A stretch of DNA of 60,578 nucleotides. Source: Lachnospiraceae bacterium. Lineage in GTDB: Bacteria > Bacillota > Clostridia > Lachnospirales > Lachnospiraceae. The notes under the pieces are model-generated. The model was given only the letters and a program-made list of their open reading frames with translations. It was not told where the DNA came from and did no database searches. The stretch's first letter is position 1, and the number at the start of each line of letters is the position of its first letter. The position numbers and the translations under genes were made by a program. The DNA lies in NCBI GenBank assembly GCA_017938285.1, contig JAGBBW010000048.1, forward strand, positions 1-60,578. The letters run 5' to 3'. This document shows, in pieces, positions 18,528 through 58,827 of this stretch.

Positions 18528-18570
18528 CCTGGAAAGAAACACTCTGGCTCACGACAGAAGAGGAGTGAAA

Positions 18571-18607
18571 AAGGGAGTCATCAACAGTTTTGTTTGATGA
18601 CTCCCTT
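18571..18607 (+). terminator. Rho-independent type terminator after the DHH gene
   Basis: AAGGGAGTCATCAA pairs with TTGATGACTCCCTT, a 14-base perfect stem with a 9-base loop, 43 bases past the stop codon. Confidence 0.75.
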
Positions 18608-18621
18608 TAAACTATGCTTTC

Positions 18622-18978
18622 CATTGGACGATACCTCTTTTTTTCAGATTTTAGTTTTCGACCGGTTTGCGTATTCTATTATGTACTGAATTTTTCTTTG
18701 CCGTTGAACTTTAGGTTAGAAAGTATCCATATGTTAATGTTCTGGCTGGATATCTGTCTTTTTTATTTTTTTTTACTTTTTGTTTCAAGGCTTCAAGAAC
18801 ATGATAGAACTTTTTTGAGTGAAATTATCGTTTCTGGTGGTCCGTACCTCTCTTTCTTTAGATTTGGATTTTTTATCAGCAGCTATAAAAATTAATCCAT
18901 TGGAGTTTACCTCCTGTTTTTTGTTGTATTGCTTTCATGGAAAGTGGATTGTTTTAAGTGTGCATTGGACTGTACCTG
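18622..18978. repeat. Four degenerate 16-base repeats in a 700-base gene-free tract
   Basis: The tract 18528-19247 has no convincing gene. Four related 16-mers occur at 18622, 18835, 18898 and 18963 with consensus CATTGGACNNTACCTC, each followed by a T-rich run such as CTTTCTTTA. Read on the minus strand they look like A-rich, AGGTA, three bases, TCCAATG, i.e. a ribosome-binding-site-like stretch before an ATG. The frames opened by these ATGs stop after 2 to 5 codons. The last 150 bases are plain AT-rich DNA, plausibly the promoter zone of the next operon. Confidence 0.4.
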
Positions 18979-39745: not shown

Positions 39746-40903
39746 ATGAAGAAAGCATTGATTGTGACTCATGTGAGTGGATTCGTACCACAATTTGAAA
39801 TGAATAACGTTCATCTTCTTCAGGAGATGGGATATGAAGTACATTATGCTTCCAACTTTAACAATGTCAGTTATGGGACGGACAACCGGCGTCTGGACGG
39901 CACAGGAATTATATGCCACCAGGTGGATTTTGCACGTTCGCCGTTTCAGGTCAGAGCACATGCCGTGGCGGTCCGACAGATGAAGGAACTGTTGCAGAAG
40001 GAATGTTTTTCGCTTCTGCATTGTCATACTCCGGTTGGTGCTGCTTTGGCGAGAGTGGCAGCAATGTCTTATCGGAAGAGGAAAAAGAATGTGCGGACAA
40101 GTGATAAAGAAATAGTTTCAGAAGAAATTCTGAAAGTTATTTACACTGCCCATGGTTTTCACTTTTATCAGGGGGCACCATGGAAATACTGGATGTTGTT
40201 TTATCCAGTGGAACGATTTCTGGCGGGTAAGACAGATGTGCTGATTACTATTAATGAGGAAGATTATCAGCGTGCAAAGCATTTTTGCCATTGTAAGAAA
40301 ACAAAAGTGGAATATATTCCGGGTGTGGGAATTGACCTGGATTATTGGGGTGGAACAGATTTACAATCTGGTGAACGGAAAAAAATCCGTAAAACCATTC
40401 GTCAGGAGCTTGGAGTGGCAGACAATGAACAGCTGTTACTCAGTGTTGGTGAACTGATTCCACGCAAGAATCATGAAACCGTTATACGCGCTTTGGCAGA
40501 AGAAAAACAAAAAGGGACGAAAGATTTTCAATATTTTATCTGCGGTCAGGGTGATTTAAAGGATTACCTGCAATCGTTGATTGGTGAACTGGGGCTTTCG
40601 AAAGAAGTGACCCTGTTAGGTTACCGGAAGGACATCCGCAACCTGTTATATGCAGCGGATTTGTTTGTGTTTCCATCGAAGCAGGAAGGTATGCCGGTGG
40701 CGCTGATGGAAGCAGCAGCGGCGGGTGTTCCAATATGTGCAAGTGATATCCGTGGAAACAGGGAAATACTGGCGGATAGTGCTGCCGGGACAGAAAATAC
40801 CAGAAAACCAGAGGAAAGTAAAAAGAAAATTTTTCTTCCGGAAAAATATGATATCCGTAATGTGAAAATGACCATGGAACGAATTTATAAGGAGCTGCAA
40901 TGA
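39746..40903 (+). CDS. GT4 family glycosyltransferase
   Basis: 385 residues, GT-B fold. The N-terminal half has VTHVSGFVPQFEMNNVHLL and the HCHTPVGAALARVAA segment that is common in capsule glycosyltransferases (EpsD/WcaJ-neighbour type). The C-terminal GT4 domain has SVGELIPRKNHETVIRAL, YFICGQGDLKDYLQSL and the nucleotide-sugar site VFPSKQEGMPVALMEAAAAG (EX7E). It acts in the cytoplasm, adding a sugar from a nucleotide donor. The ribosome binding site is weak. It is the first gene of the operon and overlaps the next by 4 bases (ATGA). Confidence 0.9.
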   Translation: MKKALIVTHVSGFVPQFEMNNVHLLQEMGYEVHYASNFNNVSYGTDNRRLDGTGIICHQVDFARSPFQVRAHAVAVRQMKELLQKECFSLLHCHTPVGAALARVAAMSYRKRKKNVRTSDKEIVSEEILKVIYTAHGFHFYQGAPWKYWMLFYPVERFLAGKTDVLITINEEDYQRAKHFCHCKKTKVEYIPGVGIDLDYWGGTDLQSGERKKIRKTIRQELGVADNEQLLLSVGELIPRKNHETVIRALAEEKQKGTKDFQYFICGQGDLKDYLQSLIGELGLSKEVTLLGYRKDIRNLLYAADLFVFPSKQEGMPVALMEAAAAGVPICASDIRGNREILADSAAGTENTRKPEESKKKIFLPEKYDIRNVKMTMERIYKELQ

Positions 40904-41838
40904 AAAAGGTACAGGTGCTGTTATCCAGCTACAACGGAGAAAAGTATATTAGGGAACAGATAGACAGCATTCTGGCACAGGAAAATGTAGAAGTGGAGCT
41001 TCTTATCAGGGATGACGGTTCCACAGATGGAACAGTAGAAATCTTACGAAAATATGAAGCAGAATATGACAATATCCGGGTGTTCTTCGGAGAAAATCAG
41101 GGTGTCATAAAAAGTTTCTTCCGTTTAATCGAAGAGGCAGGGGAAAAGGCAGACTATACTGCTTTTTCTGACCAGGATGATGTCTGGCTGCCGGGGAAAC
41201 TTGAAAGGGCAGTTACAATGCTGGAAAGAGAAAATCTTTCTGAAAAAATATTAGGACAGGACAACAGGAAAAGTCCGCTGGTTTACTGCTCTGCAAAACA
41301 GCTGGTGGATGAACAGTTGCGGCTGTTGCCGGCAGCCATCCGGTATAAAATAGTCAGACCGTTTTTTGGCAATGCACTGGTGGAAAATATGTGCACCGGT
41401 TGTACCTGTGTTATTAACCGGGATATGCTGTGTCTGCTGAAAGGCAGAAAGCCGGAATTCACAGTTATGCATGATTTCTGGGTTTACCTTGTAGGCAGTT
41501 GCTTTGGACAGGTAGTTTATGACGAAGAAAGTTATATTTTATACCGTCAGCATGGCGGGAATGAGTTGGGCGCGGCAAGCAGTCTGGCAGAGAATTACAA
41601 AAGAAGAGTGAAGAATTTTAAGAAGCACCGGGGACAGCTGACGAGGCAGGCAGAGGAACTGCTGAGACTGTATGGAACAGGAATACCAGAAGAAAAAAGA
41701 GTGCTGGCAGAAAAACTGGTGCAGGCAAAGAGAAAAAGAAAAATGAGATGGAATGTAATCAGGAGCGGCAGGGTGTTCCGGCAGAGAAAAAGTGATGATG
41801 TCATCATGAAAATGCTCCTGCTGGCAGGGTTGTTATAG
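40900..41838 (+). CDS. GT2 family glycosyltransferase, rhamnosyltransferase-like
   Basis: 312 residues. The GT-A fold is clear: QVLLSSYNGEKYIREQIDSI at the start, IRDDGSTDGT, AFSDQDDVWLPGKL with the DxD-like metal site, and the central MHDFWVYLVGSCFGQVVYDE acceptor region. The motif order matches rhamnosyltransferase and RgpB-like enzymes, which build rhamnose-containing wall polysaccharides in Firmicutes. The C-terminal 60 residues are basic and helical, possibly membrane-associated. The actual sugar is not predictable. Confidence 0.9.
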   Translation: MKKVQVLLSSYNGEKYIREQIDSILAQENVEVELLIRDDGSTDGTVEILRKYEAEYDNIRVFFGENQGVIKSFFRLIEEAGEKADYTAFSDQDDVWLPGKLERAVTMLERENLSEKILGQDNRKSPLVYCSAKQLVDEQLRLLPAAIRYKIVRPFFGNALVENMCTGCTCVINRDMLCLLKGRKPEFTVMHDFWVYLVGSCFGQVVYDEESYILYRQHGGNELGAASSLAENYKRRVKNFKKHRGQLTRQAEELLRLYGTGIPEEKRVLAEKLVQAKRKRKMRWNVIRSGRVFRQRKSDDVIMKMLLLAGLL

Positions 41839-41859
41839 AAGTTTGGAGAAAGACAGGAA

Positions 41860-43194
41860 ATGAATATGAAGAAAAAGATATCTTTGATATTTATTTTATT
41901 TTGCATCTTGTTTGCTATTGGAACAGGATGGTTTTTGTGTGAAAAACAGATTTTGAAACAGGAATCAGAATATGTTCAAAACGAGTATGAACTGGGAGAG
42001 ATGCAGTTAAATAACGTGGAACAGACGGATAATTTACTGAAAGTCGGGAACGATCCACAAATTGTTCTGAAAGATGTGAATTCTTATGTGGAAACTATAT
42101 GTCTTAGAGGCCTTCAGACAAAGGAAGAAATTCAGGTGTTTTATACGGAGACAGCAGAAGAGTTTTTTTCTGAGATAAAGAGTATGGTTCTTGTACCAGA
42201 AGAAACCAGTCAGGGAAGCATTCTTTCTATAGAAAAAAATGTGATTAATCTTCGTGTTGATTTTAATGGACCGGAAGGTAGCACCTATATGTTGGAAAAA
42301 GTTGTGCTGAATCCGTCCAAAAGTCTGGAATGGGGTCTTGGAATAGGTGTTTTTTCTGTCTTTATAGGTGCGATTTTAGGAGTGTGTTTACTGTTTCTTA
42401 TTAAAGAGGGAAAGAATTTTCGCATTTATCTCCAGGCATTGAAAAAGTATCGTTTCCTTTTGGAAGACATGGTTGTCCGTGACATCAAATTAAAATACCG
42501 CCGTTCGGTTATCGGTTTACTGTGGAGCATTTTAAACCCACTGTTAATGATGGTTGTTATTACAGCAGTGTTCCAGAACCTGTTCCGGTTTGAAATTGAA
42601 AACTTTGCTGTGTATTACCTGACCGGCTGGGTGGTATTCAATTTTGTGACAGAGGCTACCTCCGGTGCCATGACTTCTATTATCGGAGCCAGTGCCCTAA
42701 TACGAAAGGTGTATATTCCGAAATACATTTTTCCGATGCAGAAATGCTTCTTTTCTTTTGTAAATATGTTATTTTCGTTGGCTGCATTATTTGTAGTCAT
42801 GCTGGTATTAAGAGTGGAATTTACATGGAGACTGTTGCTTGTTCCAGTACCACTTGTTCTGGCACTGGTATTCGCTATCGGGCTTGGTATGATTTTGTCT
42901 ACTGTGGCAGTGTTTTTTCGGGACATGATTCACTTATATAGTGTTCTTACCATGGTGTGGATGTATCTGACACCAATCATTTATCCGGAAGAGATTCTGG
43001 TGGGAATCATGCAGACCATTATGAAACTGAATCCGCTGTACTATTATGTGGATTATTTTCGTCAGTTGACTTTGTACGGAGCAGTGCCGGATGTGGAACA
43101 ACTGCTGGTCATGACAATGTGTTCTGCCATGAGTCTGGTGTTGGGAGTTGCAGTATTCAAGAAGAAACAGGATCGTTTTATACTGTTCATTTAA
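41860..43194 (+). CDS. Polysaccharide ABC exporter permease with extra N-terminal outer domain
   Basis: 444 residues, against about 260-280 for an ordinary Wzm. Residues about 195-444 are the ABC-2 polysaccharide permease: RDIKLKYRRSVIGLLWSILNP and LTPIIYPEEI are typical, with six membrane helices. In front sits a module of about 185 residues: a membrane helix (5-26), an outward-facing beta-rich domain (about 30-155, with DPQIVLKDVNSYVETICLRG, IQVFYTE and INLRVDFNG), and a second helix (159-181). Such jelly-roll-like domains also occur in glycan-assembling membrane proteins of this bacterial group. It may contact the exported glycan. The partner ATPase is the next gene. Confidence 0.88.
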   Translation: MNMKKKISLIFILFCILFAIGTGWFLCEKQILKQESEYVQNEYELGEMQLNNVEQTDNLLKVGNDPQIVLKDVNSYVETICLRGLQTKEEIQVFYTETAEEFFSEIKSMVLVPEETSQGSILSIEKNVINLRVDFNGPEGSTYMLEKVVLNPSKSLEWGLGIGVFSVFIGAILGVCLLFLIKEGKNFRIYLQALKKYRFLLEDMVVRDIKLKYRRSVIGLLWSILNPLLMMVVITAVFQNLFRFEIENFAVYYLTGWVVFNFVTEATSGAMTSIIGASALIRKVYIPKYIFPMQKCFFSFVNMLFSLAALFVVMLVLRVEFTWRLLLVPVPLVLALVFAIGLGMILSTVAVFFRDMIHLYSVLTMVWMYLTPIIYPEEILVGIMQTIMKLNPLYYYVDYFRQLTLYGAVPDVEQLLVMTMCSAMSLVLGVAVFKKKQDRFILFI

Positions 43195-43213
43195 GAAAGG
43201 CTGTGAATTCAAA

Positions 43214-43951
43214 ATGGAAAATGCAATTGAAATAAATAATGTAACAATGAAGTTTAATATGTGCAAGGAACGTATTGATAACTTAAAGGAGTATCTGATT
43301 AAATTTCTGAAAAGGCAGCTGATGTTTGAAGAGTTTACTGCTTTGGAAAATGTTTCGGTTGAAATTAAATCAGGTGAAGTGTTTGGCATTGTGGGATTGA
43401 ATGGTTCGGGAAAAAGTACGTTGTTGAAGCTTGTTTCAGGAATTTTGAAACCTACTTCTGGGACGGTAAAAACAGCAGGGACAATTTCTCCATTGATTGA
43501 ACTTGGAGCAGGTTTTGATATGGAACTGACTGCCCGGGAAAATATTTTTATGAATGGTTCTGTGCTGGGGTACTCAAGAGAGTTCATGAAGGAAAAGTTT
43601 GATGAAATTATAGAGTTTGCGGAACTACAGGAGTTTGTGGAAGCACCTCTTAAGAATTTTTCTTCCGGCATGGTAGCCAGACTTGGATTCTCTATTGCGA
43701 CGCTTGTAAAACCTGAAATTCTGATTGTGGATGAAATTCTCGCCGTCGGGGATTTTCTGTTTCAGCAGAAATGTGAACAGAGAATACAGGAAATGATGAG
43801 TGGAGGAACAACAGTACTTATTGTATCACACTCTATTGAACAGATTGAGAGACTGTGTAACAGGGTATTATGGCTGGAAAAAGGTCAAGTGAAGATGATA
43901 GGTGAGACTGCACAAGTCTGTAGTGCGTACAAAGGAATGCCTGTGAGTTAA
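43214..43951 (+). CDS. Polysaccharide ABC exporter ATP-binding protein (Wzt-like)
   Basis: 245 residues from the ATG at 43214. Walker A GLNGSGKSTLL, signature NFSSGMVARLGFSIAT, and Walker B ILIVDEILAVGD are typical of the Wzt/TagH group. The spacing between ARENI FMNGSVLGY-like residues and the signature also fits. The carbohydrate-binding C-terminal domain found in long Wzt proteins is absent, so recognition of the polymer end must lie elsewhere, perhaps in the permease N-terminal domain. It sits between the permease and the giant glycosyltransferase gene. Confidence 0.92.
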   Translation: MENAIEINNVTMKFNMCKERIDNLKEYLIKFLKRQLMFEEFTALENVSVEIKSGEVFGIVGLNGSGKSTLLKLVSGILKPTSGTVKTAGTISPLIELGAGFDMELTARENIFMNGSVLGYSREFMKEKFDEIIEFAELQEFVEAPLKNFSSGMVARLGFSIATLVKPEILIVDEILAVGDFLFQQKCEQRIQEMMSGGTTVLIVSHSIEQIERLCNRVLWLEKGQVKMIGETAQVCSAYKGMPVS

Positions 43952-43981
43952 GGTAGTCTGGAAAGTATATGAGGAGATAGC

Positions 43982-46900
43982 ATGGGAAAATATGATTATG
44001 AGTTTGAATCCATTGATTTATTGCCATCAGGTAAGTTGGCAGCGCATATTGCAGATGGATCAACAGTACTGGAATTCGGATGTTCCACAGGAAATTTAGC
44101 AAGATATCTAACTGAAAAGAAAAAATGTCGGGTATATGCCATAGAGATGGATCAGAAAGCATTTGAAACTGCTAAGCAGTATCTTGTGGATGGAGTTTGC
44201 GGCGATATAGAGAATGATGAGTGGCTGGATTATTTTTCGGGAGTATCATTTGATGCAATAGTTTTTGCGGATGTGTTGGAACATCTACATAATCCAGATG
44301 AAACATTAAGAAAAGCCAGTATTTTGTTAAAAGAAGATGGACTGCTGTTATTTTCAGTTCCGAATATTGCGCATAATGATGTAATTATAAAGCTACTTGA
44401 AGACCGTTTTGATTATACTGAAACAGGACTTCTGGACTCTACACATATTCATTTCTGGGGAGGAAATAATCTGAGTGAATTTTTGTTGAAACAAGGATTT
44501 TTTCTGGTGGAATTAGATGCCCAGTTTCTTCCGACAATGGCAACGGAACAAACCAGCGGAAATGGTATGTGTAATGAGATAAGTAAAAATTTAAAAAATT
44601 TTTTGAAACAACATAGATATGGCGAAGTGTATCAGTTTGTAGGGAAAGCAAATAAACTGGAGTATGCCCAAAAAGTAAATCTGGTTTTTTGCAACAGAAT
44701 AAGCCTCAAAGAAAAAGAACGAGGAATATTTTGTAAGGTATATTATAACGATGGAAAAGGTTTTAACGAAGAGGACTGCCTTATTTTTTACAGGGATAAT
44801 GACAGTACAGAAATTGATTTGACAGCCTATGTGCCGAAAGGGACAACAGAAATTCGCTTTGATCCAGTGGAAGGCGCAGAGTGTGTTCTTTTTGATCTGT
44901 CTTTTCGTAGCGGAAATGAAATTTTGGATTATGAAGTTTGTAATGGAAGAAAAACAGGAAACAGTATTATATTTCTGAATACGGACCCGCAGGTGCGAGT
45001 GGATTTTGCAGGACGAGATATCAGTTCTATATCTATAGTTGCGCGGATTATGTATCTGGACAGGGATACTTCATGCTCTGTCAGGAGTCTGCTTTCAGAT
45101 TCTGATGCTGGGTGTCAGGAAGAAGTGAAAAAGAGAATGCAGACAGAGGAAAAGATGAATCGTCTTGTGACAGAACAGCAAGAAAAGGAAAGAAATTTGA
45201 AGGTACAATATGAGGAAAAATTAGAAGCAGAGCGGGAAAACATTCGGAAGATGGAGGACAATATTTCAGAAATGCAGAAGCAGGCTGAGGATAATATGAA
45301 AAATACAATTTTTGAAATGCAGGAAAAACTGCATCAGAGTCAGTTGCAGTATACTAAAGAAAATGTGATATTAGAGCAGAGCAATAGTTATTTGGAAAAA
45401 GAAAACGTAAGGCTTCAGGAAGAACTTTTTAAAGAAAGTGAAAAGAGAGAGGCGGTACAGGAGAAACTGCATCAGCTGGAGATGACAGTGGAATGTGAAA
45501 ATGTGCGTTTAAAGCAGGAAAATGCAGGAGTCGTACAGGAAAATAAAAAGCTTTCAGAAGAATTGAAAAAGGAACAGGATAAGAGAGAAATCCTGCAGGA
45601 AAAAGTATATCAGACCTGTAGACAATACGAGGCAAAAAATGCTCTGCTGGAAAAATCTTTAGAAGAGACAAAGAAAACTCTTTCCTTTGCTGTAACGGAG
45701 ACCGAGGAAGAAAAAAGGAAATATGAAGTTACTCGAAAAAGTTTGGAAAATGCTGAATTTCAGATAGAAACAATGCAGGAACTTCTGAAAAAAACAAAAG
45801 AAGAACGCGATTGTTTGAGGAATACAGAGGCAGAATGCCAGTCAGAACTAGAGAATGTCATAATAGAGCTTGCAGGTGTAAAAAACAATGCAGAGAGGAT
45901 GGAAAGCAGAAATCAACAGCTTCAGCTTCAGATGACAACTATGGAAGAACTTCATAAGATGACCCAGATGTCGCTGGAAAGTTCAGAAATTCAGAGACAG
46001 CAGCTGATTAATGATTATCGTGGACTGGAGGGACTGTATTATTCTGTGCTGGAAGAACGGAACCGGATGCTTAATTCAAAATCATGGAGATATACAAATG
46101 GTCCCCGTGTCATTTTTTCAAAGATAAAGAAGAACCGGGCACTGAGTCTGGTTGGAAAAACATTCAGTGCATTAAAAGTAGGCGGACCTCGTTTTGCAGT
46201 GCAGAAAATTAAGGGATATTTTGCACGGAAAAAACAGGTGGAGAATGTAACACTGCCGGAAGGTTTTGACTGTAGTGAAATTTGTTTTGAAACTCTTGTT
46301 GGTGAACTGACTTATTTGTCGGCGGTTCATTCTATAGCAATATATAACACAGAAAAACTGGCAGCATATAATTCGGATTTTATTGATAATAATGTACTAC
46401 TGGTGTCCCATACATTGGATTTGACAGGTGGTCCGGTTGCAGTGAGGTATTTTGCAAAAAAATTACTGGAGGATGGATACAGCCCGGTTGTGTTTTCTCC
46501 GAATGGTGGAGAACTGATAGATACTCTGGTAAAAGATGGAATACCTGTTGTGGTATTCGATCAGTTTATGACCAGTGAATTTATTTTAAAGTATGTACAG
46601 TTGTTTTCTTTCGCTGTATTAAATACGATTGTATGTGCACCGCTTGTTAGCAGGTTGTCAGGTCTGAGACTTCCGGTAATATGGTGGATTCATGAAGCAA
46701 AGGTATCCTATCATCCGGGACAGATAGCACTTATGCCAGAAAAAGTTGGTGAAAATGTGAAAATTTACTGTGGTGGTGAATATGCCAAAAAGGTTCTTTT
46801 AAGTAATTTTCCAAATTACCAGGCAGATACACTTCTGTATTATGTACCGGATTATCTGTATGAAGTGAATGCAGGCAGTGAATATTCTATTGGTAATACT

Positions 46901-48673
46901 GCAGGGAAAATAGTATTTGCCTCCATAGGTATGCAGGAAGAACGGAAGGGACAGGATATTCTGGCAAGTGCGATTCTGACACTTTCGAAGGAATGTGTGG
47001 AACGTTGCTATTTTCTGTTCATTGGCAAGAACTATTATGAGCCAATTGCTGCAAAAATTCGTTATTTATGTGAAAAGTATCCGCTTAATGTGAGGCACAT
47101 TCCAGAAGTGAATCCGGAGCAGTTGAAGTCTGTATACAGACAGATTGATTGTCTGGTATGTACTTCCCGGGATGATCCAATGCCAATTGTTGTGACGGAA
47201 GCATTCCTGATGAAGAAATTGGTAATCTGTTCTGAAAATGCAGGGTCTGCACAGTTTATTCAGGATGGTGTAAATGGTTTTGTTTACCATAATGACGACT
47301 ATATGGAACTGGTAGAGAAAATACAAATTGTGCTGGATGGAAAAGTGAATTTATCAGACATTGGTGAACAAGCGCGAATGGTTTATATGAACAATTTTGG
47401 TAAGGAGGCATTTGACAGGGCAATTGATACGGTTATCGAAGCTTTGGATACAAATACCCAGAGTACGTATGATGTGTCTGTGGTAATACCGACTTATAAC
47501 GGAGGAGAGCAGTTTAAGGAAATGCTGAATGTACTGGAACGTCAGAAAAACTGCGGGTCTGTGGAAATTGTTGTGGTGGATTCCGGCAGTAAAGATGGAA
47601 CGGTGGAAGCCTGTCGGGAACATAATGTAACTCTTGTTGAAATTCCGAATGAGAAGTTTTCTCATTCCTATGCAAGAAATCTTGGTGCAGAATCTGCGCA
47701 TGGAAAAATTATTGCATTTATGACACAGGATGCCATGCCATCTTCGGATGAATGGCTGTTCCAGATGACAGAACCGATTGTATCTGGGGAAGTATCTGCT
47801 GTTTCCTGTGGCGAACAGTGTCCGGAAGGAACAGATTTATATTATCGAATTGCATCCTTTGGACATGCCAGATACGTTGGCTTCCTTGAAAAGGATGTAG
47901 TTGGTTCTATTGAAAACTGCACAGATGACGATACGTTGCGTAGAAATGCATCCTTGAATGATGTTGCATGTATTGTAGAACGTAAAGTTTTCATGCGATT
48001 TAAGCACAGGTTTAATTATGCGGAAGATCTGGACTTGGGAATCCGTCTGTTAAAAAAAGGATATAAGATTAAATTGTTGTCCGGGGTACGGGTAGTTCAT
48101 GCGCATAACCGGGTGGCAGATTATTACATGAAACGTGCCATTGTTGAAAATGAAGCATTTTTCAGGATTTTTCCGGATAAAAAGGCACCGGCAGAAGATG
48201 AGAATGTCGTGGTAAGCCGGATTGTCCGTTCGAGTTGTATGATGTCAGAGATTCTTGCAAGAGTAGATGAGTTAGGAAAGAAGCATTATGATACCTTCCA
48301 GGATTTTCTGAAAGACTCAGTTAAAATTTTTGACGATGTAATGAAACATTCAGATAAGTACACTTCATTGAAGAAGAATGAGAAGTTCCAATGTCCGGAA
48401 CTGGAGAAACTGGTTGACTTCTGCATACAGAATTACCGGATTTATGAGCATCCGTCCAATATTAATCCGGTATGGGGAGTGAAACATTATCTGGAGAATT
48501 CCATTGTAAGTTATATTGATTATCAGGGAATTAAATATACAAAGCGTTTAAAAAATGATATCTGCAGTTGCCTGCTGAAACAGTTTGCATTTGCAGTTGG
48601 TGCTGAAATTTCCAATCTGGGAGAATCAGGAAAACTGAAAGAAAAGGTAAAAGAACTTACCAAAGGAGTTTAG
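43982..48673 (+). CDS. Giant fusion: methyltransferase, coiled coil, GT4 and GT2
   Basis: 1563 residues. Order: class I SAM methyltransferase (about 10-185: VLEFGCSTGNLARYL, YAIEMD, FDAIVFADVLEHLHNPDETL); a beta-rich region (225-365) with RFDPVEG at 292-298; a coiled coil of over 300 residues (about 375-695); the segment NSKSWRYTNGPR (about 700) often seen at such junctions; a GT4 enzyme (about 800-1155: LVSHTLDLTGGPVAVRYFAK, ASIGMQEERKGQDIL, CTSRDDPMPIVVTEAFLM); a GT2 enzyme (about 1160-1400: VSVVIPTYNGG, VVVDSGSKDGT, FMTQDAM); and a helical tail. No membrane segment. The coiled coil may set polymer length or assemble the synthase, as proposed for WbdD-type proteins that also carry a methyltransferase. 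Reactions are inferred from domains only. Confidence 0.9.
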   Translation: MGKYDYEFESIDLLPSGKLAAHIADGSTVLEFGCSTGNLARYLTEKKKCRVYAIEMDQKAFETAKQYLVDGVCGDIENDEWLDYFSGVSFDAIVFADVLEHLHNPDETLRKASILLKEDGLLLFSVPNIAHNDVIIKLLEDRFDYTETGLLDSTHIHFWGGNNLSEFLLKQGFFLVELDAQFLPTMATEQTSGNGMCNEISKNLKNFLKQHRYGEVYQFVGKANKLEYAQKVNLVFCNRISLKEKERGIFCKVYYNDGKGFNEEDCLIFYRDNDSTEIDLTAYVPKGTTEIRFDPVEGAECVLFDLSFRSGNEILDYEVCNGRKTGNSIIFLNTDPQVRVDFAGRDISSISIVARIMYLDRDTSCSVRSLLSDSDAGCQEEVKKRMQTEEKMNRLVTEQQEKERNLKVQYEEKLEAERENIRKMEDNISEMQKQAEDNMKNTIFEMQEKLHQSQLQYTKENVILEQSNSYLEKENVRLQEELFKESEKREAVQEKLHQLEMTVECENVRLKQENAGVVQENKKLSEELKKEQDKREILQEKVYQTCRQYEAKNALLEKSLEETKKTLSFAVTETEEEKRKYEVTRKSLENAEFQIETMQELLKKTKEERDCLRNTEAECQSELENVIIELAGVKNNAERMESRNQQLQLQMTTMEELHKMTQMSLESSEIQRQQLINDYRGLEGLYYSVLEERNRMLNSKSWRYTNGPRVIFSKIKKNRALSLVGKTFSALKVGGPRFAVQKIKGYFARKKQVENVTLPEGFDCSEICFETLVGELTYLSAVHSIAIYNTEKLAAYNSDFIDNNVLLVSHTLDLTGGPVAVRYFAKKLLEDGYSPVVFSPNGGELIDTLVKDGIPVVVFDQFMTSEFILKYVQLFSFAVLNTIVCAPLVSRLSGLRLPVIWWIHEAKVSYHPGQIALMPEKVGENVKIYCGGEYAKKVLLSNFPNYQADTLLYYVPDYLYEVNAGSEYSIGNTAGKIVFASIGMQEERKGQDILASAILTLSKECVERCYFLFIGKNYYEPIAAKIRYLCEKYPLNVRHIPEVNPEQLKSVYRQIDCLVCTSRDDPMPIVVTEAFLMKKLVICSENAGSAQFIQDGVNGFVYHNDDYMELVEKIQIVLDGKVNLSDIGEQARMVYMNNFGKEAFDRAIDTVIEALDTNTQSTYDVSVVIPTYNGGEQFKEMLNVLERQKNCGSVEIVVVDSGSKDGTVEACREHNVTLVEIPNEKFSHSYARNLGAESAHGKIIAFMTQDAMPSSDEWLFQMTEPIVSGEVSAVSCGEQCPEGTDLYYRIASFGHARYVGFLEKDVVGSIENCTDDDTLRRNASLNDVACIVERKVFMRFKHRFNYAEDLDLGIRLLKKGYKIKLLSGVRVVHAHNRVADYYMKRAIVENEAFFRIFPDKKAPAEDENVVVSRIVRSSCMMSEILARVDELGKKHYDTFQDFLKDSVKIFDDVMKHSDKYTSLKKNEKFQCPELEKLVDFCIQNYRIYEHPSNINPVWGVKHYLENSIVSYIDYQGIKYTKRLKNDICSCLLKQFAFAVGAEISNLGESGKLKEKVKELTKGV

Positions 48674-48676
48674 GAT

Positions 48677-49597
48677 ATGAAAAACATTTTAGTATTAGGA
48701 GGTTGCGGATTTATCGGCTCCTTTCTGGTGAAGCGTCTGCAGGAAGAACACAATGTACTGGTTTACGACAGATGTGAGCCTGTATATGAATTTAAAGGAA
48801 AAAGTATTATTGGAAATTTTGCAGAAGAGCAGAATTTTTATGAAATTTTAGTGGAAAACCAGGTTGACCTGGTTTTCCATCTGATTTCTACAGCACTTCC
48901 AACAGACAGCACACATGCAATTGAGCAGGAGATTTTGACAAATGTAATTCCTTCGGTTCGTTTATTTGAGGCTATGGTGAAAGCAAACGTGAAAAGATTG
49001 ATTTTTTCTTCATCGGGAGGGACGGTATATGGGGAATCTTTTGGACAGCCTCACAAAGTCACAGACCGGACGGCACCAATTTGCAGTTATGGCATTCAGA
49101 AAAATTCTATAGAAAATTATATAGCATTGTATAACCGTTACTATGGAATGGAATTTATTGTAGCAAGAATATCGAATCCTTATGGTGTCTGGACCCAGCA
49201 GAACCGTATGCAGGGGATTATACCGATTTTTATCCGGAAGTTGTTGGATGATGAGCCAATAACGGTATTTGGTGATACGAAAAGAGATTATATTTTTATA
49301 GATGATGTAATAGAGGCTTTTGTGTGTATGATTGAATATTGTGGGATGGAGCGGGTATTCAATGTAGGAACGGGAGTTGCGACTAGTATTAGTGAGATTA
49401 TAGGAATTATTGAAACGGAGATAGGAAAGAAGTTTTCACAGATTGAATATAAGGATATTCGGAAGTGCGATGTAAAGGAGAATGTGTTGGATGCTTCTAA
49501 AAGTAAGGAAAAATTGAAATGGAGTATAAAGAATGGTATTGAAAAAGGAGTTATTGAGGTTATAGAAAAAATAAAAAAGAATGAAAGGGAAGAGTAA
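48677..49597 (+). CDS. NAD-dependent epimerase/dehydratase (GalE-like SDR)
   Basis: 306 residues. Extended short-chain dehydrogenase: NAD site LGGCGFIGSFLVKRL (GxxGxxG), FSSSGGTVYGE, the catalytic YGIQK (YxxxK) and RISNPYG. It most resembles UDP-hexose 4-epimerase-like enzymes, which convert UDP-Glc/GlcNAc to the Gal forms, but other nucleotide-sugar steps are possible. It starts 3 bases after the giant fusion gene and supplies sugars in the cytoplasm. Confidence 0.9.
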   Translation: MKNILVLGGCGFIGSFLVKRLQEEHNVLVYDRCEPVYEFKGKSIIGNFAEEQNFYEILVENQVDLVFHLISTALPTDSTHAIEQEILTNVIPSVRLFEAMVKANVKRLIFSSSGGTVYGESFGQPHKVTDRTAPICSYGIQKNSIENYIALYNRYYGMEFIVARISNPYGVWTQQNRMQGIIPIFIRKLLDDEPITVFGDTKRDYIFIDDVIEAFVCMIEYCGMERVFNVGTGVATSISEIIGIIETEIGKKFSQIEYKDIRKCDVKENVLDASKSKEKLKWSIKNGIEKGVIEVIEKIKKNEREE

Positions 49598-49599
49598 CA

Positions 49600-51654
49600 A
49601 TGGCTTCAGATTCAAAAAAAAGCTTTTCTACGGTGAATAAAAAATATCTGCTAAGTGTTGTAATTTTACTAGCAGGAATTATTAAAGTGGTTTTAGTACA
49701 GAACCTGCCTATTTACGCGATAACATATGCTGTTCATGATGATAGAATGATGGTTAATATGGCTCAAAGTTTATTAGCTGGAGAATGGTTGGGCGAATAC
49801 AATCAGATGACACTGGTAAAAGGAATTGTATATCCTCTTTTTCTGGCATTTTGTAATAAGATAGGAATGCCGTACTTAACAGGAATAGCTTTAAATTATT
49901 TTTTTGCATGTATGCTTATGATATTTGTTATAAGTAAAGTATATAAAAATAAAATTGGCTTATTTTTTATATACATAATTTTATTGTTTGATCCTATTAC
50001 AATGTCCTTACATGCATTTCAAAGAGTATATAGATGTTCATTGACGCCGGCCCACATAATAATTTTACTTGCTTGCTTTTTTGCAATGTATATTGAAAGA
50101 AAGCAAAGTAAGAAAAAAATGATAGCTTGGGCAGTATTAGCAGGAGTTTCGTTAGGAATAATGTGGAATACCCGTGAAGATGGAATTTGGGTATTGCCGT
50201 TTGTTGCGGGCGTTATTTTTGTTACAGTTTTAAAGGTGTTTTTTGAATTTAAGAAAAAAGATAGATTTATAAGAATTGGCATAGGTGTATTACCATTAGT
50301 AGTATTTCTAATAATGAATAATGCAATAGCATTAACAAATTATATACATTATGGAATTTATACTACAAATGAATTGAGTGATAGTGCATATTCCGATTTT
50401 ATGAAATCTATTTATTCTGTAAGACCAAATGATGATATAGACTATGTTTCTGTACCAAGAGAGACAATGAATCGGATTTGTGAAGAAAGTCCTACATTAA
50501 AAAGTATTCAGGAAAACATAAATATTACACTCGATGCTTGGGAAATACATGGAAAAACAACAGGCGACATGGAAGTGGAACATGGCCGGCTTTTTTGGGC
50601 GTTAAGAGATGCGGTAGCTGCTTCTGGATATTATGCAGATGCACAAAAAGCTAATAATTTCTATATGACTGTTTCTAATGAAATAGAACAAGCAATAGAG
50701 GAAGGCAGATTAGAGCGAAGAAATATAATGCCATCCGTTATGATGGCTCCATGGAAAAGTGAGTTTTTTTCTGAACTTTTAACACAACTGCCAAAAACGT
50801 TGAAGTCTGTTATTGAATATGCGGGAGTTGCGGCTAGTATTGAACAAAGTGTTGATAACGACATTGAAAACAAAGGAATCAGGTTATATGAATCTTTAAC
50901 AGGTAATTTGGCAATATATCCCACAAGATATGTGACGAGTATTAACGGTTGGATGTTTGCAAAAAATGAGGACTGGAAAGCAGTAAATATAGTTGATAGA
51001 AATTACAATAAAATAAGTGAAATAAATTTTATGGAAAGTCCGGATATATATGACTATTTTATTTATGAATTTAATCTATCATACGAGAATGCGAATCAAT
51101 GCAGATTCGCCATCAGTCTTTCTGAGTTGGAGCAAAGTAGATTTCCATTGCAAGTGGAAATTATTTCATCTACTGGAGAGAAACAGTATTATGAACTGGT
51201 TACTACTGAAAATGAGGATTTGATAATGCTGTATGATAATGTGAGTACGGCTGAGAGTGAGGATATTTATGCTTCATATTCAGAAAAAAGAGTAGATTTG
51301 ATAAATAGGTTCAGTTCAATATATAAAAAGGTTAATCCTGTTCTTTTTGTTATTGGAGTTATAGGATACGTATATATTACAGTAATGTATGTTATCAGCG
51401 TAAGGAAAAAAGAAAATATTTGTGAAGAAATGTGGCTTTTTTTGAGTGGAGTATTGGGGAGTTTAGTAGTATTAGTTGGAGGAATTTCATATACGCATAT
51501 TTCAGCTTATAATGCGGTCACTCACTTATATTTATCTGCTGCATATCCATTAAATACTTTATTTGGGATAGTTTCAGTAGTTACAGTATATAGTATGTTA
51601 AAGAAAAGGATTCGGATTCAGTTGATGACGGAGGATAAGAAAAATGAAGTATAA
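49600..51654 (+). CDS. Multi-membrane-helix protein, GT-C-like glycosyltransferase
   Basis: 684 residues. About eight N-terminal membrane helices, a long outward-facing domain (about 250-560) and three more helices at the end. The first loop after helix 1 carries an acidic pair (YAVHDDRMMVNMAQSLLAGE), and a second acidic site follows (WNTREDGIWVLP). In GT-C enzymes such loop acidic residues form the active site and use lipid-phosphate sugars. The DNA is visibly more AT-rich than in the flanking genes, with many AAA/ATA codons, suggesting separate acquisition. No named family is recognised, so GT-C is an inference. Confidence 0.7.
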   Translation: MASDSKKSFSTVNKKYLLSVVILLAGIIKVVLVQNLPIYAITYAVHDDRMMVNMAQSLLAGEWLGEYNQMTLVKGIVYPLFLAFCNKIGMPYLTGIALNYFFACMLMIFVISKVYKNKIGLFFIYIILLFDPITMSLHAFQRVYRCSLTPAHIIILLACFFAMYIERKQSKKKMIAWAVLAGVSLGIMWNTREDGIWVLPFVAGVIFVTVLKVFFEFKKKDRFIRIGIGVLPLVVFLIMNNAIALTNYIHYGIYTTNELSDSAYSDFMKSIYSVRPNDDIDYVSVPRETMNRICEESPTLKSIQENINITLDAWEIHGKTTGDMEVEHGRLFWALRDAVAASGYYADAQKANNFYMTVSNEIEQAIEEGRLERRNIMPSVMMAPWKSEFFSELLTQLPKTLKSVIEYAGVAASIEQSVDNDIENKGIRLYESLTGNLAIYPTRYVTSINGWMFAKNEDWKAVNIVDRNYNKISEINFMESPDIYDYFIYEFNLSYENANQCRFAISLSELEQSRFPLQVEIISSTGEKQYYELVTTENEDLIMLYDNVSTAESEDIYASYSEKRVDLINRFSSIYKKVNPVLFVIGVIGYVYITVMYVISVRKKENICEEMWLFLSGVLGSLVVLVGGISYTHISAYNAVTHLYLSAAYPLNTLFGIVSVVTVYSMLKKRIRIQLMTEDKKNEV

Positions 51655-53715: not shown

Positions 53716-53731
53716 CGGTTGTGAGGTATAT

Positions 53732-54664: not shown

Positions 54665-55449
54665 AGTTAGCCATTTCAAATATTGCCTGGCCTGTTGCTG
54701 AAAATGAAAAAATGTACCAGACCATGTCAGACATGGGATTTACCGGAATTGAAATTGCACCGACAAAACTGTTTCCAACTGCACCATACGCACATTTGAG
54801 CGAGACTGCCAAATGGTGTGAGAAGATGAAGAAGGAGTATGGTTTGCAGGTAGCTTCCATGCAGTCAATATGGTATGGAAGGACAGAAAACATGTTTAGT
54901 TCCGCAGAAGAAAGGAAATGTCTGCTGGAATATACCAAAGAGGCTGTACGGTTTGCAGAGGTTGCTGGTTGTGGAAATCTGGTGTTCGGCTGTCCGAGAA
55001 ACCGGAATATTGGAGAAAATGCAGAACTGGAGGAAGCAGTTTCGTTTTTCAAGGACTTGGGGGAATATGCTTATGCCCATGGCACAGTCATTGGGATGGA
55101 GGCAAATCCGCCAATTTATAACACAAATTTTATTAATGACACTGCTTCTGCAATTGCACTGATTAAAGAGGTGGACAGTAAAGGTTTCCGTCTAAATCTG
55201 GATTTTGGGACGGTTTTGCAGAATGAGGAATCACTGGAAACATTTTGTGATAATGTGGGACTGATTAATCATGTCCATATAAGTGAACCTGGACTGGAAA
55301 AAATCAGGGAAAGACAGGAACACAAAGTACTGGCTGAAATGCTGTGGAATGCCGGTTACCAGGGATTTGTTTCCATTGAGATGAAGCAGCAGGAAAACAC
55401 TTCAGATATTATTTCAGTGATGAATTATTTGAGGGAGGTATTTGCATGA
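54661..55449 (+). CDS. TIM-barrel sugar isomerase/epimerase
   Basis: 262 residues. AP-endonuclease-2/xylose-isomerase-like TIM barrel: AISNIAWPV, MGFTGIEIAPTKLF, SMQSIWYG, VFGCPRNRNIG, GMEANPPIY (metal Glu), NLDFGTVL, HVHISEPG and FVSIEMK (metal Glu). The metal-binding residues of the family are kept. Such enzymes interconvert keto and hydroxy sugars or polyols. The gene is overlapped on both sides by the neighbours (ATGA), so it is part of the same pathway. Confidence 0.88.
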   Translation: MKLAISNIAWPVAENEKMYQTMSDMGFTGIEIAPTKLFPTAPYAHLSETAKWCEKMKKEYGLQVASMQSIWYGRTENMFSSAEERKCLLEYTKEAVRFAEVAGCGNLVFGCPRNRNIGENAELEEAVSFFKDLGEYAYAHGTVIGMEANPPIYNTNFINDTASAIALIKEVDSKGFRLNLDFGTVLQNEESLETFCDNVGLINHVHISEPGLEKIRERQEHKVLAEMLWNAGYQGFVSIEMKQQENTSDIISVMNYLREVFA

Positions 55450-56252
55450 TTTATGAAAAGCAGAAGGGTGTACCTAAGTTTGAATGTATGGAGTATGAAG
55501 GAAAAACTTCGGAATACTGTGTGCTGATTCCAATTATTAACGAAGGCGACAGAATTCGCAAAGAACTGGAGCGCGCATATAAATATAATGTACATACATA
55601 CGCGGATATCGTGATTTGTGATGGTGGTTCCACGGATGGCTGTACGGAGGAAGAACAACTGAAAAAATTAAAGGTGAATGCGTTATTGGTGAAACGTGAC
55701 GCAGGAAAGCAGGGCGCCCAGCTGCGAATGGGAATCTGGTGGGCATTACAGAGAGGATATAAAGGAATTATTACAATAGACGGAAACAATAAGGACAGTA
55801 TAGAGGATGTTCCTAAATTTATTGACAAACTGAAGGAAGGGTATGGTCTGATTCAGGGTTCCAGATTTGTCCGTGGAGGCAGGGCAATAAATACACCATT
55901 TGTCAGGCTGCTTTCCGTCCGTTTGATTCATGCACCGGTGATTTCCCTTACGGCAGGGCAGTGGTTTACTGACACTACCAATGCCTACAGGGGGTATTCT
56001 GCGGAATATCTCAGGGATGAAAGGGTAAAGCCGCTGCGGGATATTTTTATGACGTATGAACTGCTGGCATATCTTTCTGTAAGAGCCACCCAGCTTGGTT
56101 ATAAAGCATGCGAGATTCCTGTTACAAGGGCTTATCCTAAAACGGGAAAAGTGCCGACAAAGATTAGTTTTTTCAAGGGAAACAGTGAACTGATGAAGAT
56201 ACTTTTCAAAAATTTATTCGGTGCATATAAACCGGAAAAGGAAAGGTCATAG
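55446..56252 (+). CDS. GT2 family glycosyltransferase (DPM-like, no membrane domain)
   Basis: 268 residues. GT2 domain with VLIPIINEGDRI, VICDGGSTDG, GKQGAQLRMGIWWAL, ITIDGNNKDS (metal site) and FVRGGRAINTP. The sequence pattern is that of DPM1-like enzymes, but the C-terminal membrane helices are missing. The segment DTTNAYRGYS is a conserved acceptor-side motif. It sits 1 base ahead of the SMR pair, so it probably makes the lipid-linked sugar that the pair moves. It overlaps the TIM-barrel gene by 4 bases. Confidence 0.85.
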   Translation: MIYEKQKGVPKFECMEYEGKTSEYCVLIPIINEGDRIRKELERAYKYNVHTYADIVICDGGSTDGCTEEEQLKKLKVNALLVKRDAGKQGAQLRMGIWWALQRGYKGIITIDGNNKDSIEDVPKFIDKLKEGYGLIQGSRFVRGGRAINTPFVRLLSVRLIHAPVISLTAGQWFTDTTNAYRGYSAEYLRDERVKPLRDIFMTYELLAYLSVRATQLGYKACEIPVTRAYPKTGKVPTKISFFKGNSELMKILFKNLFGAYKPEKERS

Positions 56253-56253
56253 T

Positions 56254-56595
56254 ATGTTGGAATCGTTGCAGAAGAATAAAAAAGGAATCCTGCTGATGAT
56301 AATTTCTTCCCTGTGTGTCTGTGTGGGACAGTTATTATGGAAATTGTCATCAGCGTATGGAATTGTAGTGCTGCTTGCAGGATTTGCTTTTTATGGCATT
56401 GGAGCCTTGGTGATGCTGGTGGCGTACAGATATGGAAAGCTGTCAGTGTTACAGCCTATGCTTAGTCTGAATTATGTGTTAAGTATAGTACTGGCAGGTG
56501 TTGTCCTGAAAGAAGAAATATCACTGGTAAAATGTGTGGGAGTTCTGATTATTATTGCCGGAGTTATTCTGATAGCCGGAGGTGATGAGGAGTGA
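56254..56595 (+). CDS. SMR-like membrane protein, ArnE/ArnF type (first of pair)
   Basis: 113 residues with four hydrophobic helices (about 11-28, 33-52, 65-85 and 90-108). The pattern CVGQLLWKLSSAYG, then VAYRYGKLSVLQPMLSLNYV and LKEEISLVKCVG is typical of EamA/SMR proteins. Two adjacent half-size copies resemble ArnE and ArnF, which flip undecaprenyl-phosphate-aminoarabinose. Here the cargo would be the lipid-linked sugar made by the neighbouring GT2 proteins. The stop overlaps the next start. Confidence 0.82.
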   Translation: MLESLQKNKKGILLMIISSLCVCVGQLLWKLSSAYGIVVLLAGFAFYGIGALVMLVAYRYGKLSVLQPMLSLNYVLSIVLAGVVLKEEISLVKCVGVLIIIAGVILIAGGDEE

Positions 56596-56918
56596 TTTAT
56601 TACTGTATTTTACTGTTGATGACGCTGATAGGAGCAGTGGCTTCACTGTTCTTAAAGAAAGCCTCCGGAGCAGGAGGAATTGTTGAACTAATTAAAAATA
56701 AGAATTTGTATCTTGGAGGAATACTGTATGTGCTGTCGGCAGTGCTGAACATATATATTTTGAGGTATCTGGATTATTCTGTAGTGTTGCCATTGACATC
56801 GTTTACATATATTTGGACGTTGTTTTTATCTGGAACAATATTGAATGAAAAAATAACAAAGAAGAAGATTTTTGGTGTAGTGTTGGTGATTTTTGGTGCA
56901 GTGTGTATTGCGAGATAA
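56592..56918 (+). CDS. SMR-like membrane protein, ArnE/ArnF type (second of pair)
   Basis: 108 residues from a GTG start that overlaps the previous stop; GGAGGTGATGAGGAG precedes it. Four helices with LIGAVASLFLKKASGAGG, YLDYSVVLPLTSFTYIWTLF, LNEKITKKKIFGVVLVIFG and ICIAR-type ending (here VCIAR). It is the partner of the preceding protein, most likely a heterodimer with opposite orientation in the membrane. Confidence 0.82.
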   Translation: MIYYCILLLMTLIGAVASLFLKKASGAGGIVELIKNKNLYLGGILYVLSAVLNIYILRYLDYSVVLPLTSFTYIWTLFLSGTILNEKITKKKIFGVVLVIFGAVCIAR

Positions 56919-56976
56919 GAAAGGTACGCTTTTTATATTCTCTATAATTTCAAATACCATGAGGAGGAATTAAACG

Positions 56977-58827
56977 TTGAAAACCAAGATTGAGTTACAG
57001 AAGAACTATATTCTAATAGCTGCTGTTTTTTTGATTATATTTACAATATCTGCATTTATAAGGAAACCTCATGAAGCAGAAGGATTTTATATGTCAGATG
57101 CTACATATCATGTTTTATTGACAATGCAAGCTTATGATGAAACACCAAGTTCAATACATCATTGGTTGCCTATTCAAACCTATGGAAGTACTTATGATAA
57201 AGATATAATGAATGGACCTTCTTTGCTTCAAGATGAATTTGGAAATAGTTACTATGTATCATTTTCTCCGCTAGGATTTTCTGTACCTTATTTTTTTTGC
57301 AAGATTTTTCATTTAGATTTAACAGTAGACAGCCTTTATATTTTTAATTGTTTATGTATGCTTCTGAGTGCTGTACTTGTCGGCTTTATTATGTATATGC
57401 TGTTTAAAAAGCAGATTATATTTTGGTTATCTGTAGTAGTGTATATGTTTTTACCAGAGGTTCTTTATACACAAGGAATTGTATACTGGCATCATAGTTT
57501 GACACAAGTTTTTTTGCTACTACAAACAATTTTATTCATTTTGCTTTTCATTGAAAAAAGAAAAAATAAGGGATTATTATTGTTATTTTTTATAGTTTCA
57601 TTTGTGTATCCGTATTCTGAATGGACTGGATATATTTGTAATATAGGAATGGCACTTGGAATTCTTGTTTTAGATTTCAAGATAGAGAAAGATGAAAATC
57701 AAAAAAGAAGATTTTCACTTGCAACAACAACAGTTGCAAAAGTTTTTGTATTAGCAGTGATTACAATAAGCGCATTCGGTTATTACATTTACAGATTTTC
57801 GATTATTTTAAGTGTTTCAGATATCATTTCTACAATGACTTCGAGAGCTGGCGCCAGAAGTGAAGCGTCATTGACTACATTATTGACAGGATATAAGAAT
57901 TCTTATTTGCCATTACTGATGGTTGTAATAATGTGCTTGGGGATTGCACTGTTAGTTAAATCATCCAGAAAGAAGCTGGCAGATATATTTATTCAAAAGA
58001 AATACTTGGTTGTCATAACTGTATTCATTTTCCCGATTTTTGAAAATCTACTCATGATGGAGCATGCGATTTCATATACATTCGATCGACTTAAAGGCGC
58101 AACGATTCTAATCTTTATTTTTATAGTAAGTGTATATGCATTAGGAGAAATATCAAAAAAAGTTGTTTGGATTGTTACATTATTTTCTTCTGGTTTTATC
58201 ATCATTGCAGGATTAGGTACTTACAGTAGTGGAAAGACAATGTTACTGAGTGAATATCAAGATACTATTATAATGAGGGATTATTTGCAAGAGAATTATA
58301 TTGATGGTGGAAAATGTATGTTGGTAAAGGATGGTTGGAGAGCTTGGGGGTATTTGCAGACTTTATATCATCGAAATATATACTGTACGGCATTGTATTC
58401 TGAAAATCAACTGGAAGAAATTGCTTTTAATACAGGAAGAGATTATATTGTGGTTTTGAAAGCAACATCCGAATATGGAGATACATCTTGCTATACCAAA
58501 GCGGTAGTTATAGAATTGTCAACATCAAATGTATTTCAACTTAGTGTATTGGATGGAAAAGTGATATCGGAAGAAATTGTTGAGTTATATGCAGCGGAGA
58601 TTACAGATGTCAATTGGACAAACGGTATTTTTAATTTTAATAATGCAGAAATACTGTTTAACAATACATCATACAACTATGCAAAACTTGAAACTGCAAC
58701 TAAAATTTATTGTAATGGTGAAGTTTATAATATTGTTAGTATGAATAGTGATTCGAACTGGATTCATGTTTATGTGGATAAAGACGCAACAGATTGTGGG
58801 TATCCAAGCGTTTTGAAAGTTGAGTAG
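56977..58827 (+). CDS. Multi-membrane-helix protein, GT-C-like glycosyltransferase
   Basis: 616 residues from a TTG start with GAGGAGGA about 9 bases upstream. About 11 membrane helices in the first 410 residues and a C-terminal soluble part of about 200 residues. The loop after the first helix carries acidic and His residues (HEAEGFYMSDATYH), as in GT-C enzymes that use lipid-phosphate sugars outside the cell. The DNA is markedly AT-rich compared with the preceding genes. It is the last gene of the operon, next to transposase remnants. It is the best candidate to transfer the flipped sugar onto the exported polymer. Confidence 0.75.
   Translation: MKTKIELQKNYILIAAVFLIIFTISAFIRKPHEAEGFYMSDATYHVLLTMQAYDETPSSIHHWLPIQTYGSTYDKDIMNGPSLLQDEFGNSYYVSFSPLGFSVPYFFCKIFHLDLTVDSLYIFNCLCMLLSAVLVGFIMYMLFKKQIIFWLSVVVYMFLPEVLYTQGIVYWHHSLTQVFLLLQTILFILLFIEKRKNKGLLLLFFIVSFVYPYSEWTGYICNIGMALGILVLDFKIEKDENQKRRFSLATTTVAKVFVLAVITISAFGYYIYRFSIILSVSDIISTMTSRAGARSEASLTTLLTGYKNSYLPLLMVVIMCLGIALLVKSSRKKLADIFIQKKYLVVITVFIFPIFENLLMMEHAISYTFDRLKGATILIFIFIVSVYALGEISKKVVWIVTLFSSGFIIIAGLGTYSSGKTMLLSEYQDTIIMRDYLQENYIDGGKCMLVKDGWRAWGYLQTLYHRNIYCTALYSENQLEEIAFNTGRDYIVVLKATSEYGDTSCYTKAVVIELSTSNVFQLSVLDGKVISEEIVELYAAEITDVNWTNGIFNFNNAEILFNNTSYNYAKLETATKIYCNGEVYNIVSMNSDSNWIHVYVDKDATDCGYPSVLKVE

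Follow-up and report, generated by a model that had tools for sequence, protein, structure and literature searches.

The window analysed here, a stretch of 60,578 nucleotides from a Lachnospiraceae genome, encodes a 1563-residue fusion protein that we interpret, from its sequence and surroundings, as probably a combined polymerase and coiled-coil-ruled chain terminator serving a surface polysaccharide that is exported by an ABC transporter. The chain runs from a methyltransferase through a second domain and a coiled coil into two glycosyltransferase (GT) modules, GT4 and GT2 (Table 1). The first-pass annotation had suggested that one protein could cap, measure and polymerise. There are precedents for such a protein: K. 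pneumoniae O12 WbbB and O7 ORF6 are described as single-chain terminator/coiled-coil/GT proteins (PMC11231755), and the Gram-positive WsaE is described as a methyltransferase joined to two rhamnosyltransferases (PMC2943079). What appears to be new here is the longest coiled coil among those compared, a putative GT4–GT2 polymerase, the apparent lack of a cap reader and signs of change by whole repeat units.

Architecture of the fusion protein

The gene is one frame of 1563 codons with zero internal stops in the list of open reading frames, and its G+C content stays between 0.37 and 0.40 along the whole length. A Pfam search, the HMM check that had been suggested for the modules, found the methyltransferase (Methyltransf_23, residues 19–177, E 1.1e-18), the GT4 (Glyco_trans_4_5, residues 804–911, E 6e-16; Glycos_transf_1, residues 974–1132, E 5e-23) and the GT2 (Glycos_transf_2, residues 1166–1289, E 5e-19); with the coiled-coil score given below, this bears out the earlier view that four modules share one chain. 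No useful Pfam match was obtained for residues 1395–1563, and residues 187–393 gave a single match, to an unrelated family (E 0.064).

Separate proteins produced by a frameshift were the outcome that the first-pass annotation had itself set against its reading, and the window does come from a draft assembly of 154 contigs, in which two or more genes could have been joined by misassembly or a missed frameshift. However, two full-length homologues from other genomes (L050 and L060), each 35% identical to the fusion, have the same module order throughout, with homologous GT4 and GT2 modules. Because of these two proteins we consider a joining artefact extremely improbable, and the uninterrupted frame and the even G+C content also speak against it. 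In a third relative (L046, from a record titled Alphaproteobacteria) the start of the GT4 is visible before the contig ends. Among plasmid records, none held a protein covering 80% of the fusion.

The conserved methyltransferase residues are intact in the fusion. Fifteen N-terminal positions, including E31, G33, G37, E55, D97, E100, H101, D152 and H155, are invariant in a 69-row alignment headed by the window protein and comprising 68 relatives besides it (12 of the 80 loci were omitted because they were truncated, had an unusual N-terminus or nearly duplicated another). The domain that follows at about residues 225–365, which was left out of the first-pass module list, has no useful Pfam match, and the PDB yielded none up to E 5; as a candidate copy of the Wzt CBM it was rejected, the profile comparison being unsupportive (hhalign probability 0.3%). 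No Pfam kinase family was found in the fusion that would correspond to the kinase lying between methyltransferase and coiled coil in WbdD of O9a. Towards the C-terminus, the GT2 module contains a TQDA motif, which we take to be typical of rhamnosyltransferases, and the GT part of the fusion has rfbN-annotated matches. RmlA above its cut-off is present in the window's genome, which makes a dTDP-rhamnose donor only possible.

Table 1. Features of the fusion protein, of the surrounding gene row and of a second locus in the same genome (positions are those of the window, except in the last line; res, residues).
Feature	Position	Strand	Basis or remark
Methyltransferase / 225–365 domain / coiled coil / GT4 / GT2 fusion, 1563 aa	43982..48673	+	ORF, Pfam, L050 and L060
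Methyltransferase domain, res 19–177	44036..44512	+	Pfam; best PDB match by sequence 3cc8
Domain with IRFDP motif, res about 225–365, beta-rich by eye	44654..45076	+	sequence
Coiled coil, res 396–666	45167..45979	+	COILS-like score
Degenerate 46-residue tandem repeat, res 446–608, inside coiled coil	45317..45805	+	self-match score
Basic junction with NSKSWRYTNGPR motif, res 698–752, net charge +15	46073..46237	+	sequence
GT4 module, res 804–1132	46391..47377	+	Pfam
GT2 module, res 1165–1384, TQDA motif	47474..48133	+	Pfam; rfbN-annotated matches
GT4, same gene row	39746..40903	+	Pfam
GT2, same gene row	40900..41838	+	Pfam
Wzm-like ABC-2 permease, 444 aa	41860..43194	+	Pfam; topology by eye
Wzt/TagH-like ATPase, 245 aa, without C-terminal CBM	43214..43951	+	sequence
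NAD-dependent epimerase/dehydratase (sugar nucleotide)	48677..49597	+	Pfam
684-aa multi-TM protein, no useful family match	49600-51654		inside row
GT2 resembling polyprenyl-phosphate glycosyltransferases	55446..56252	+	start of candidate outside-decoration set
Pair of small EamA-type membrane proteins, candidate flippase for a lipid-linked sugar	56221..56918	+	
616-aa multi-TM protein, candidate GT-C	56977..58827	+	by eye; no useful Pfam match
Second ABC glycan locus L037 (G000:C34:8001-27000)	12471-18727		also 896-aa GT2–GT4 protein

The coiled coil, its repeat and the basic junction

By a COILS-like score, which uses a table and cut-offs of our own and not those supplied with a tool, the coiled coil consists of three close stretches (residues 396–441, 455–618 and 620–666) with a total span of 271 residues. 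To reach the earlier figure of more than 300 residues, one has to include the linker that extends to the SxSWR motif at residue 698, as the distance from the end of the preceding domain to this motif is 340 residues; by score, the coiled coil is shorter. Its span is the longest of the 69 relatives compared, followed by those of L041 (192) and L050 (176). The degenerate tandem repeat inside it has a unit of 46 residues, equal to five heptads plus one hendecad, and a self-match score of 165; register-keeping shuffles reached at most 71 in a set of 300 and 84 in a further set of 100. Between copies 1 and 2, 23 of 46 residues are identical, between copies 1 and 3 the number is 15, and copy 4 is barely recognisable. 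Stutter-type register shifts at residues 455, 509 and 552 fit approximately one per 46-residue unit; further shifts are found at 394, 442 and 574–575.

The basic junction downstream is a candidate membrane-proximal segment. Two of its residues, W702 and R709, are at least 90% conserved in a set of 22 rows. In 44 stand-alone relatives, the last 40 residues have a median charge of +4, with 19 of the 44 at +5 or more, versus −1.6 per 40 residues in the linker before them, where none of the same 44 reaches +5.

A widespread family with recurrent fusion or fission

The methyltransferase–coiled-coil unit defines a family that is widespread. A profile built on residues 1–383 and headed by the window protein matches 36 of 397 genomes of the same taxonomic family at E 1e-20 (17 at E 1e-75 or better) and 7 of 392 genomes drawn from the same order at E 1e-60. 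At least 458 relatives were confirmed in named genomes, and the best 80 of these provided the loci studied here; among the taxa given in record titles are Lachnospiraceae, Oscillospiraceae, Paenibacillus, Aneurinibacillus and Campylobacterales. The fusion itself shows both features by which the family is defined, the profile match and a coiled coil following it.

Among 22 long members including the window protein, Pfam finds the methyltransferase in 22, a GT2 in 19 and Glycos_transf_1 in 4. Long fusions of at least 900 aa account for 18 of the 66 scored members, the other 48 standing alone. On a quick tree, the fused/stand-alone label needs 13 changes (after shuffling, 16.0 on average, with equally few in 16 of 500 trials), with at least three changes forced by the starred branches; fusion or fission is therefore recurrent in the family. 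The window protein's own position on this tree is without strong support. In L226 the coiled coil is followed, by eye, by GT2 and GT4 modules with no match to the window's GTs. Another arrangement is seen at L249:5501-9568, where a 1355-aa fusion joins methyltransferase and coiled coil to modules that by eye look GT4-like and WbsX-like.

Coiled-coil length and repeat units across relatives

Across 69 members, the end of the N-terminal part falls at residue 358 (standard deviation 8), a constancy partly fixed by alignment anchoring, and the coiled-coil span varies from none to 271 residues. Fourteen family ORFs longer than 300 aa have no coiled coil by score, two of them ending at a contig edge. 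Only coiled-coil spans are compared, because the linker was set to 250 by default in fused proteins without the SxSW motif.

Repeats were sought by self-match in the 59 members with a testable linker, and in 22 of these the best self-match exceeds the top value from 100 shuffles by 15% or more. Their periods are multiples of 7 in 15 cases, leave a remainder of 4 in four and do neither in three. At the DNA level, the 31.0 kb of linker, a figure that includes the default linkers, contain 28 arrays according to Tandem Repeats Finder, and the remaining 1,377 kb of the loci contain 229. Eight linker arrays from eight loci have at least 90% matches and are therefore recent. The idea that repeats are special to the coiled coils of this family was not established by comparison with control segments, either by DNA arrays (7/52 vs 2/51 segments, p 0.16, Tandem Repeats Finder) or by protein self-match (12/52 vs 4/51, p 0.055); a smaller control set gave 7/62 vs 1/25 (p 0.43). 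Three of the five control repeat hits are GT2–coiled-coil proteins from the family's own loci. As the family thus shows no significant excess, a tendency to form repeats may be common to coiled coils in general.

Indels of 4 or more residues were counted in 32 disjoint pairs. In the coiled coil, 36 of 69 have a length of 7n or 7n+4 (p 3e-5 versus 2/7); in the catalytic part this is true of 14 of 34, and the comparison between the two (p 0.31) does not establish a preference in the coiled coil. The ten closest pairs (at least 65% identity; one pair takes the same contig twice and one contains a protein cut by a contig end) have nine of ten coiled-coil indels of these lengths and zero catalytic-part indels of 4 or more residues. 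The clearest example is one pair of near-identical proteins, L238 and L247 (genomes G406 and G792 of one genus; 477 and 505 aa), which is 99% identical, and its sole indel is exactly 28 residues, or four heptads, located in the coiled coil and corresponding to one copy of an 84-base unit. The common part of the two clusters is 97–99% identical in DNA. The length difference may be due to repeat collapse during assembly. For two further genomes of one genus, G123 and G419, the open frames are nearly equal (463 and 462).

Judged from these comparisons, rulers in the family appear to lengthen and shorten by whole coiled-coil repeat units. With whole units gained or lost, polymer length would change in fixed steps, leaving the catalytic parts untouched. 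We propose tentatively, and at less than even likelihood, that the ruler is an evolvable tandem-repeat rod whose units of 7n, or of 7n+4 with a stutter, are gained and lost, the window protein being an extreme case with a cap that the exporter would leave unread. Among the papers listed by searches of an open-access library for coiled-coil rulers with tandem repeats, for rulers in Gram-positives and for terminators with a Wzt CBM, none has a title or opening of the abstract that mentions a change in length by repeat units. At two other loci (L073:9998-16152 and L081:10004-16084) the methyltransferase has no coiled coil, and a GT2-like protein encoded there (521 and 491 aa) ends in a long coiled coil rich in repeats, which looks like a transfer of the ruler to the glycosyltransferase.

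Export and cap reading

The exporter ATPase, 245 aa from its ATG at 43214, ends at the nucleotide-binding domain and is closest to the N-terminal part of the teichoic acid TagH and the galactan Wzt; the earlier observation that it is without a terminal-sugar-binding domain is thus confirmed. The window is not unique in this. In the 81 loci formed by the window and the best 80 of at least 458 relatives, 68 have a Wzt within the stretch examined, 54 of these with a C-terminal extension and 14 without one, the window included (in L113 the hit, of 217 aa, is weak). When 28 of the extensions were combined into a profile, it matched four distinct PDB sequences (8dky, 6o14, 7k2t and 8dku), all listed as ABC transporter, which we take to be the CBM-bearing Wzt of Aquifex. 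A cap-reading Wzt CBM is described as the typical partner of a chain terminator (PMC11127046), and the window is therefore a minority form. No link between the absence of the CBM and either the fusion or a long permease was seen by eye in the same loci.

The same genome contains a second locus of this kind, on contig C34, whose ATPase and permease are 91% and 76% identical to those of the window and which has a stand-alone GT2 that shares 50% identity with the last 428 residues of the fusion. A search of the whole genome, whose assembly is about 87% complete, found no second full family member; a weak match with stops lies on another contig. The 91%-identical ATPase in a locus without the methyltransferase suggests export without cap reading, and the simplest reading of the two loci is that the exporter does not need the cap. 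Half of the classical coupling between termination and export would then be absent, because no CBM reads the cap, and as the exporter would not read it, capping would set length, not export.

Known systems, proposed mechanism and rival explanations

By sequence, the fusion has the layout of WbbB and ORF6 of O7, with a terminator-type enzyme at the N-terminus, a coiled coil in the middle and GTs at the C-terminus, and it is encoded together with a Wzm/Wzt exporter. WbbB (K. pneumoniae O12/Raoultella terrigena) is described as a terminator, a coiled coil and two C-terminal GTs serving ABC export; unlike the fusion, it has a Kdo transferase as terminator, belongs to Gram-negative LPS and involves GT99, GT102 and GT103 (PMC11231755). 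The description of ORF6 of O7 is of one chain with a methyltransferase, extra domains that include a predicted immunoglobulin-like CBM, a coiled coil and two GTs, and it differs from the fusion in its kinase domain and its GT2–GT2 pair (PMC11231755).

WsaE of the Geobacillus stearothermophilus S-layer glycan, likened here by its description, shares with the fusion the Gram-positive background, the order wzm–wzt–wsaE, the N-terminal capping methyltransferase and the pairing of this enzyme with two GTs, in WsaE two rhamnosyltransferase activities; unlike for the fusion, a coiled coil is not mentioned in that description (PMC2943079, PMC3898925). A 1069-aa Aneurinibacillus protein (L080) with a coiled-coil span of 62 residues and a weak match to the window's GT2 serves as a WsaE proxy only. 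The WsaE that appears in the text of PMC10433991 and PMC13410964 is a capsule gene of the same name.

WbdD (E. coli O9a and O8) likewise joins a methyltransferase to a coiled coil and is partnered by Wzm/Wzt, and its coiled coil has been demonstrated as a length ruler in O9a (PMC3482155, PMC5082667), insertions lengthening the chain and truncations shortening it (PMC5082667). As described, it has no GT in the chain, a ruler of roughly 20 nm and a Wzt with CBM, unlike the fusion (PMC3482155, PMC5082667); O9a WbdD also has a kinase domain, and the kinase-less O8 WbdD is closer to the fusion (PMC3482155). The WbdD-like logic proposed in the first-pass annotation is supported by the module order, the wzm–wzt adjacency, the intact methyltransferase residues and the variable coiled coil; the kinase domain of O9a WbdD and the cap-reading CBM on its Wzt have no counterpart in the window's locus. 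The MT of E. coli O101/O162 resembles the fusion, by description, in its N-terminal methyltransferase, C-terminal coiled coil and ABC locus, and differs in that no GT is mentioned in the chain; an intact MT is reported to be a prerequisite for O-methylation in O101 (PMC13168486).

In the mechanism that we favour, GT4 and GT2, held at the membrane via the basic SxSWR junction, would lengthen a lipid-linked chain, and the coiled coil of a putative oligomer would keep the methyltransferase in the cytoplasm at a distance of about 40 nm (271 residues × 1.485 Å) to 50 nm (340 residues). A chain would have to reach the methyltransferase to be O-methylated at the non-reducing end, whereupon growth would stop; the finished chain would leave via Wzm/Wzt with an ATPase that does not read the cap, and would probably be decorated outside by a lipid-linked sugar system. 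In favour of a ruler-bound terminator are the domain order with its conserved methyltransferase residues, the shared architecture of L050 and L060, the placement of wzm–wzt directly upstream of the fusion and the presence of a Wzt in 68 of the 81 loci, the varying coiled-coil span behind an N-terminal part of steady length, the basic end of the coiled coil, the repeated switches between fused and stand-alone states, the L238/L247 difference and the published precedents WbdD (PMC5082667), WbbB and ORF6 (PMC11231755) and WsaE (PMC2943079). Counted against it are the methylation by WsaE, reported as independent of chain length in vitro (PMC2943079), the missing CBM, the 14 ORFs without a coiled coil, the non-significant repeat excess and the poorly supported position of the window protein on the tree.

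The lack of a CBM and the coiled-coil-less ORFs would also suit a methyltransferase that decorates the chain, internally or at every repeat, or modifies a precursor, with a coiled coil that oligomerises or recruits and measures nothing. We find this doubtful, as the coiled coil lies between a terminator-type enzyme and the GTs, as described for WbbB and ORF6 of O7 (PMC11231755), its length varies beside a constant catalytic part, and the frequency of CBM-type Wzt extensions (54 of 68 loci) fits a terminal group that is read in most cases. Distinctly less probable, in our judgement, is a WsaE-like enzyme of an S-layer or secondary cell-wall glycan, in which the cap would mark the end for a ligase or for stability and the balance of enzymes would set length. 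A coiled coil of 271 residues would be costly if functionless, and the heptad-unit length difference between the close relatives L238 and L247 is likewise at odds with this explanation, even though the order wzm–wzt–fusion is that described for wzm–wzt–wsaE (PMC2943079) and both RmlA and the rfbN-annotated matches agree with it.

Coiled coils that set polymer length have been demonstrated for a few Gram-negative O antigens, and the family provides many naturally occurring length variants, most of them from Firmicutes and some from Gram-negatives. With its near-identical pair differing by one four-heptad unit, the ruler model would become open to tests on proteins found in nature, and the occurrence in one genome of near-identical CBM-less ATPases with and without a capping fusion bears on the role of cap reading in export.

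Gene neighbourhood

The fusion belongs to a same-strand row extending from 39746 to 58827, in the order GT4, GT2, permease, ATPase, fusion, epimerase and further sugar genes. The upstream GT4 would be an adaptor or backbone enzyme, and the 684-aa multi-TM protein is perhaps a glycan ligase or a GT-C. At the end of the row, the GT2 resembling polyprenyl-phosphate glycosyltransferases, the EamA-type pair and the 616-aa protein form a candidate set of the GT2, EamA and multi-membrane parts that a three-component outside decoration system is described as expecting (PMC11127046).

About 180 additional aa at the N-terminus of the permease read by eye as TM, outside domain and TM. This N-terminal extension matches two other ORFs only, weakly, and a Wzm of at least 410 aa is found in 21 of the 67 loci with a Wzm hit among the window and the best 80 of at least 458 relatives. 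Just upstream of the glycan row lie genes for a FliB-like flagellin lysine methylase (36337-37440) and a CotH-kinase-family protein (37404-39479), and beyond it lies a piece of an IS66-type transposase (59121-59630).
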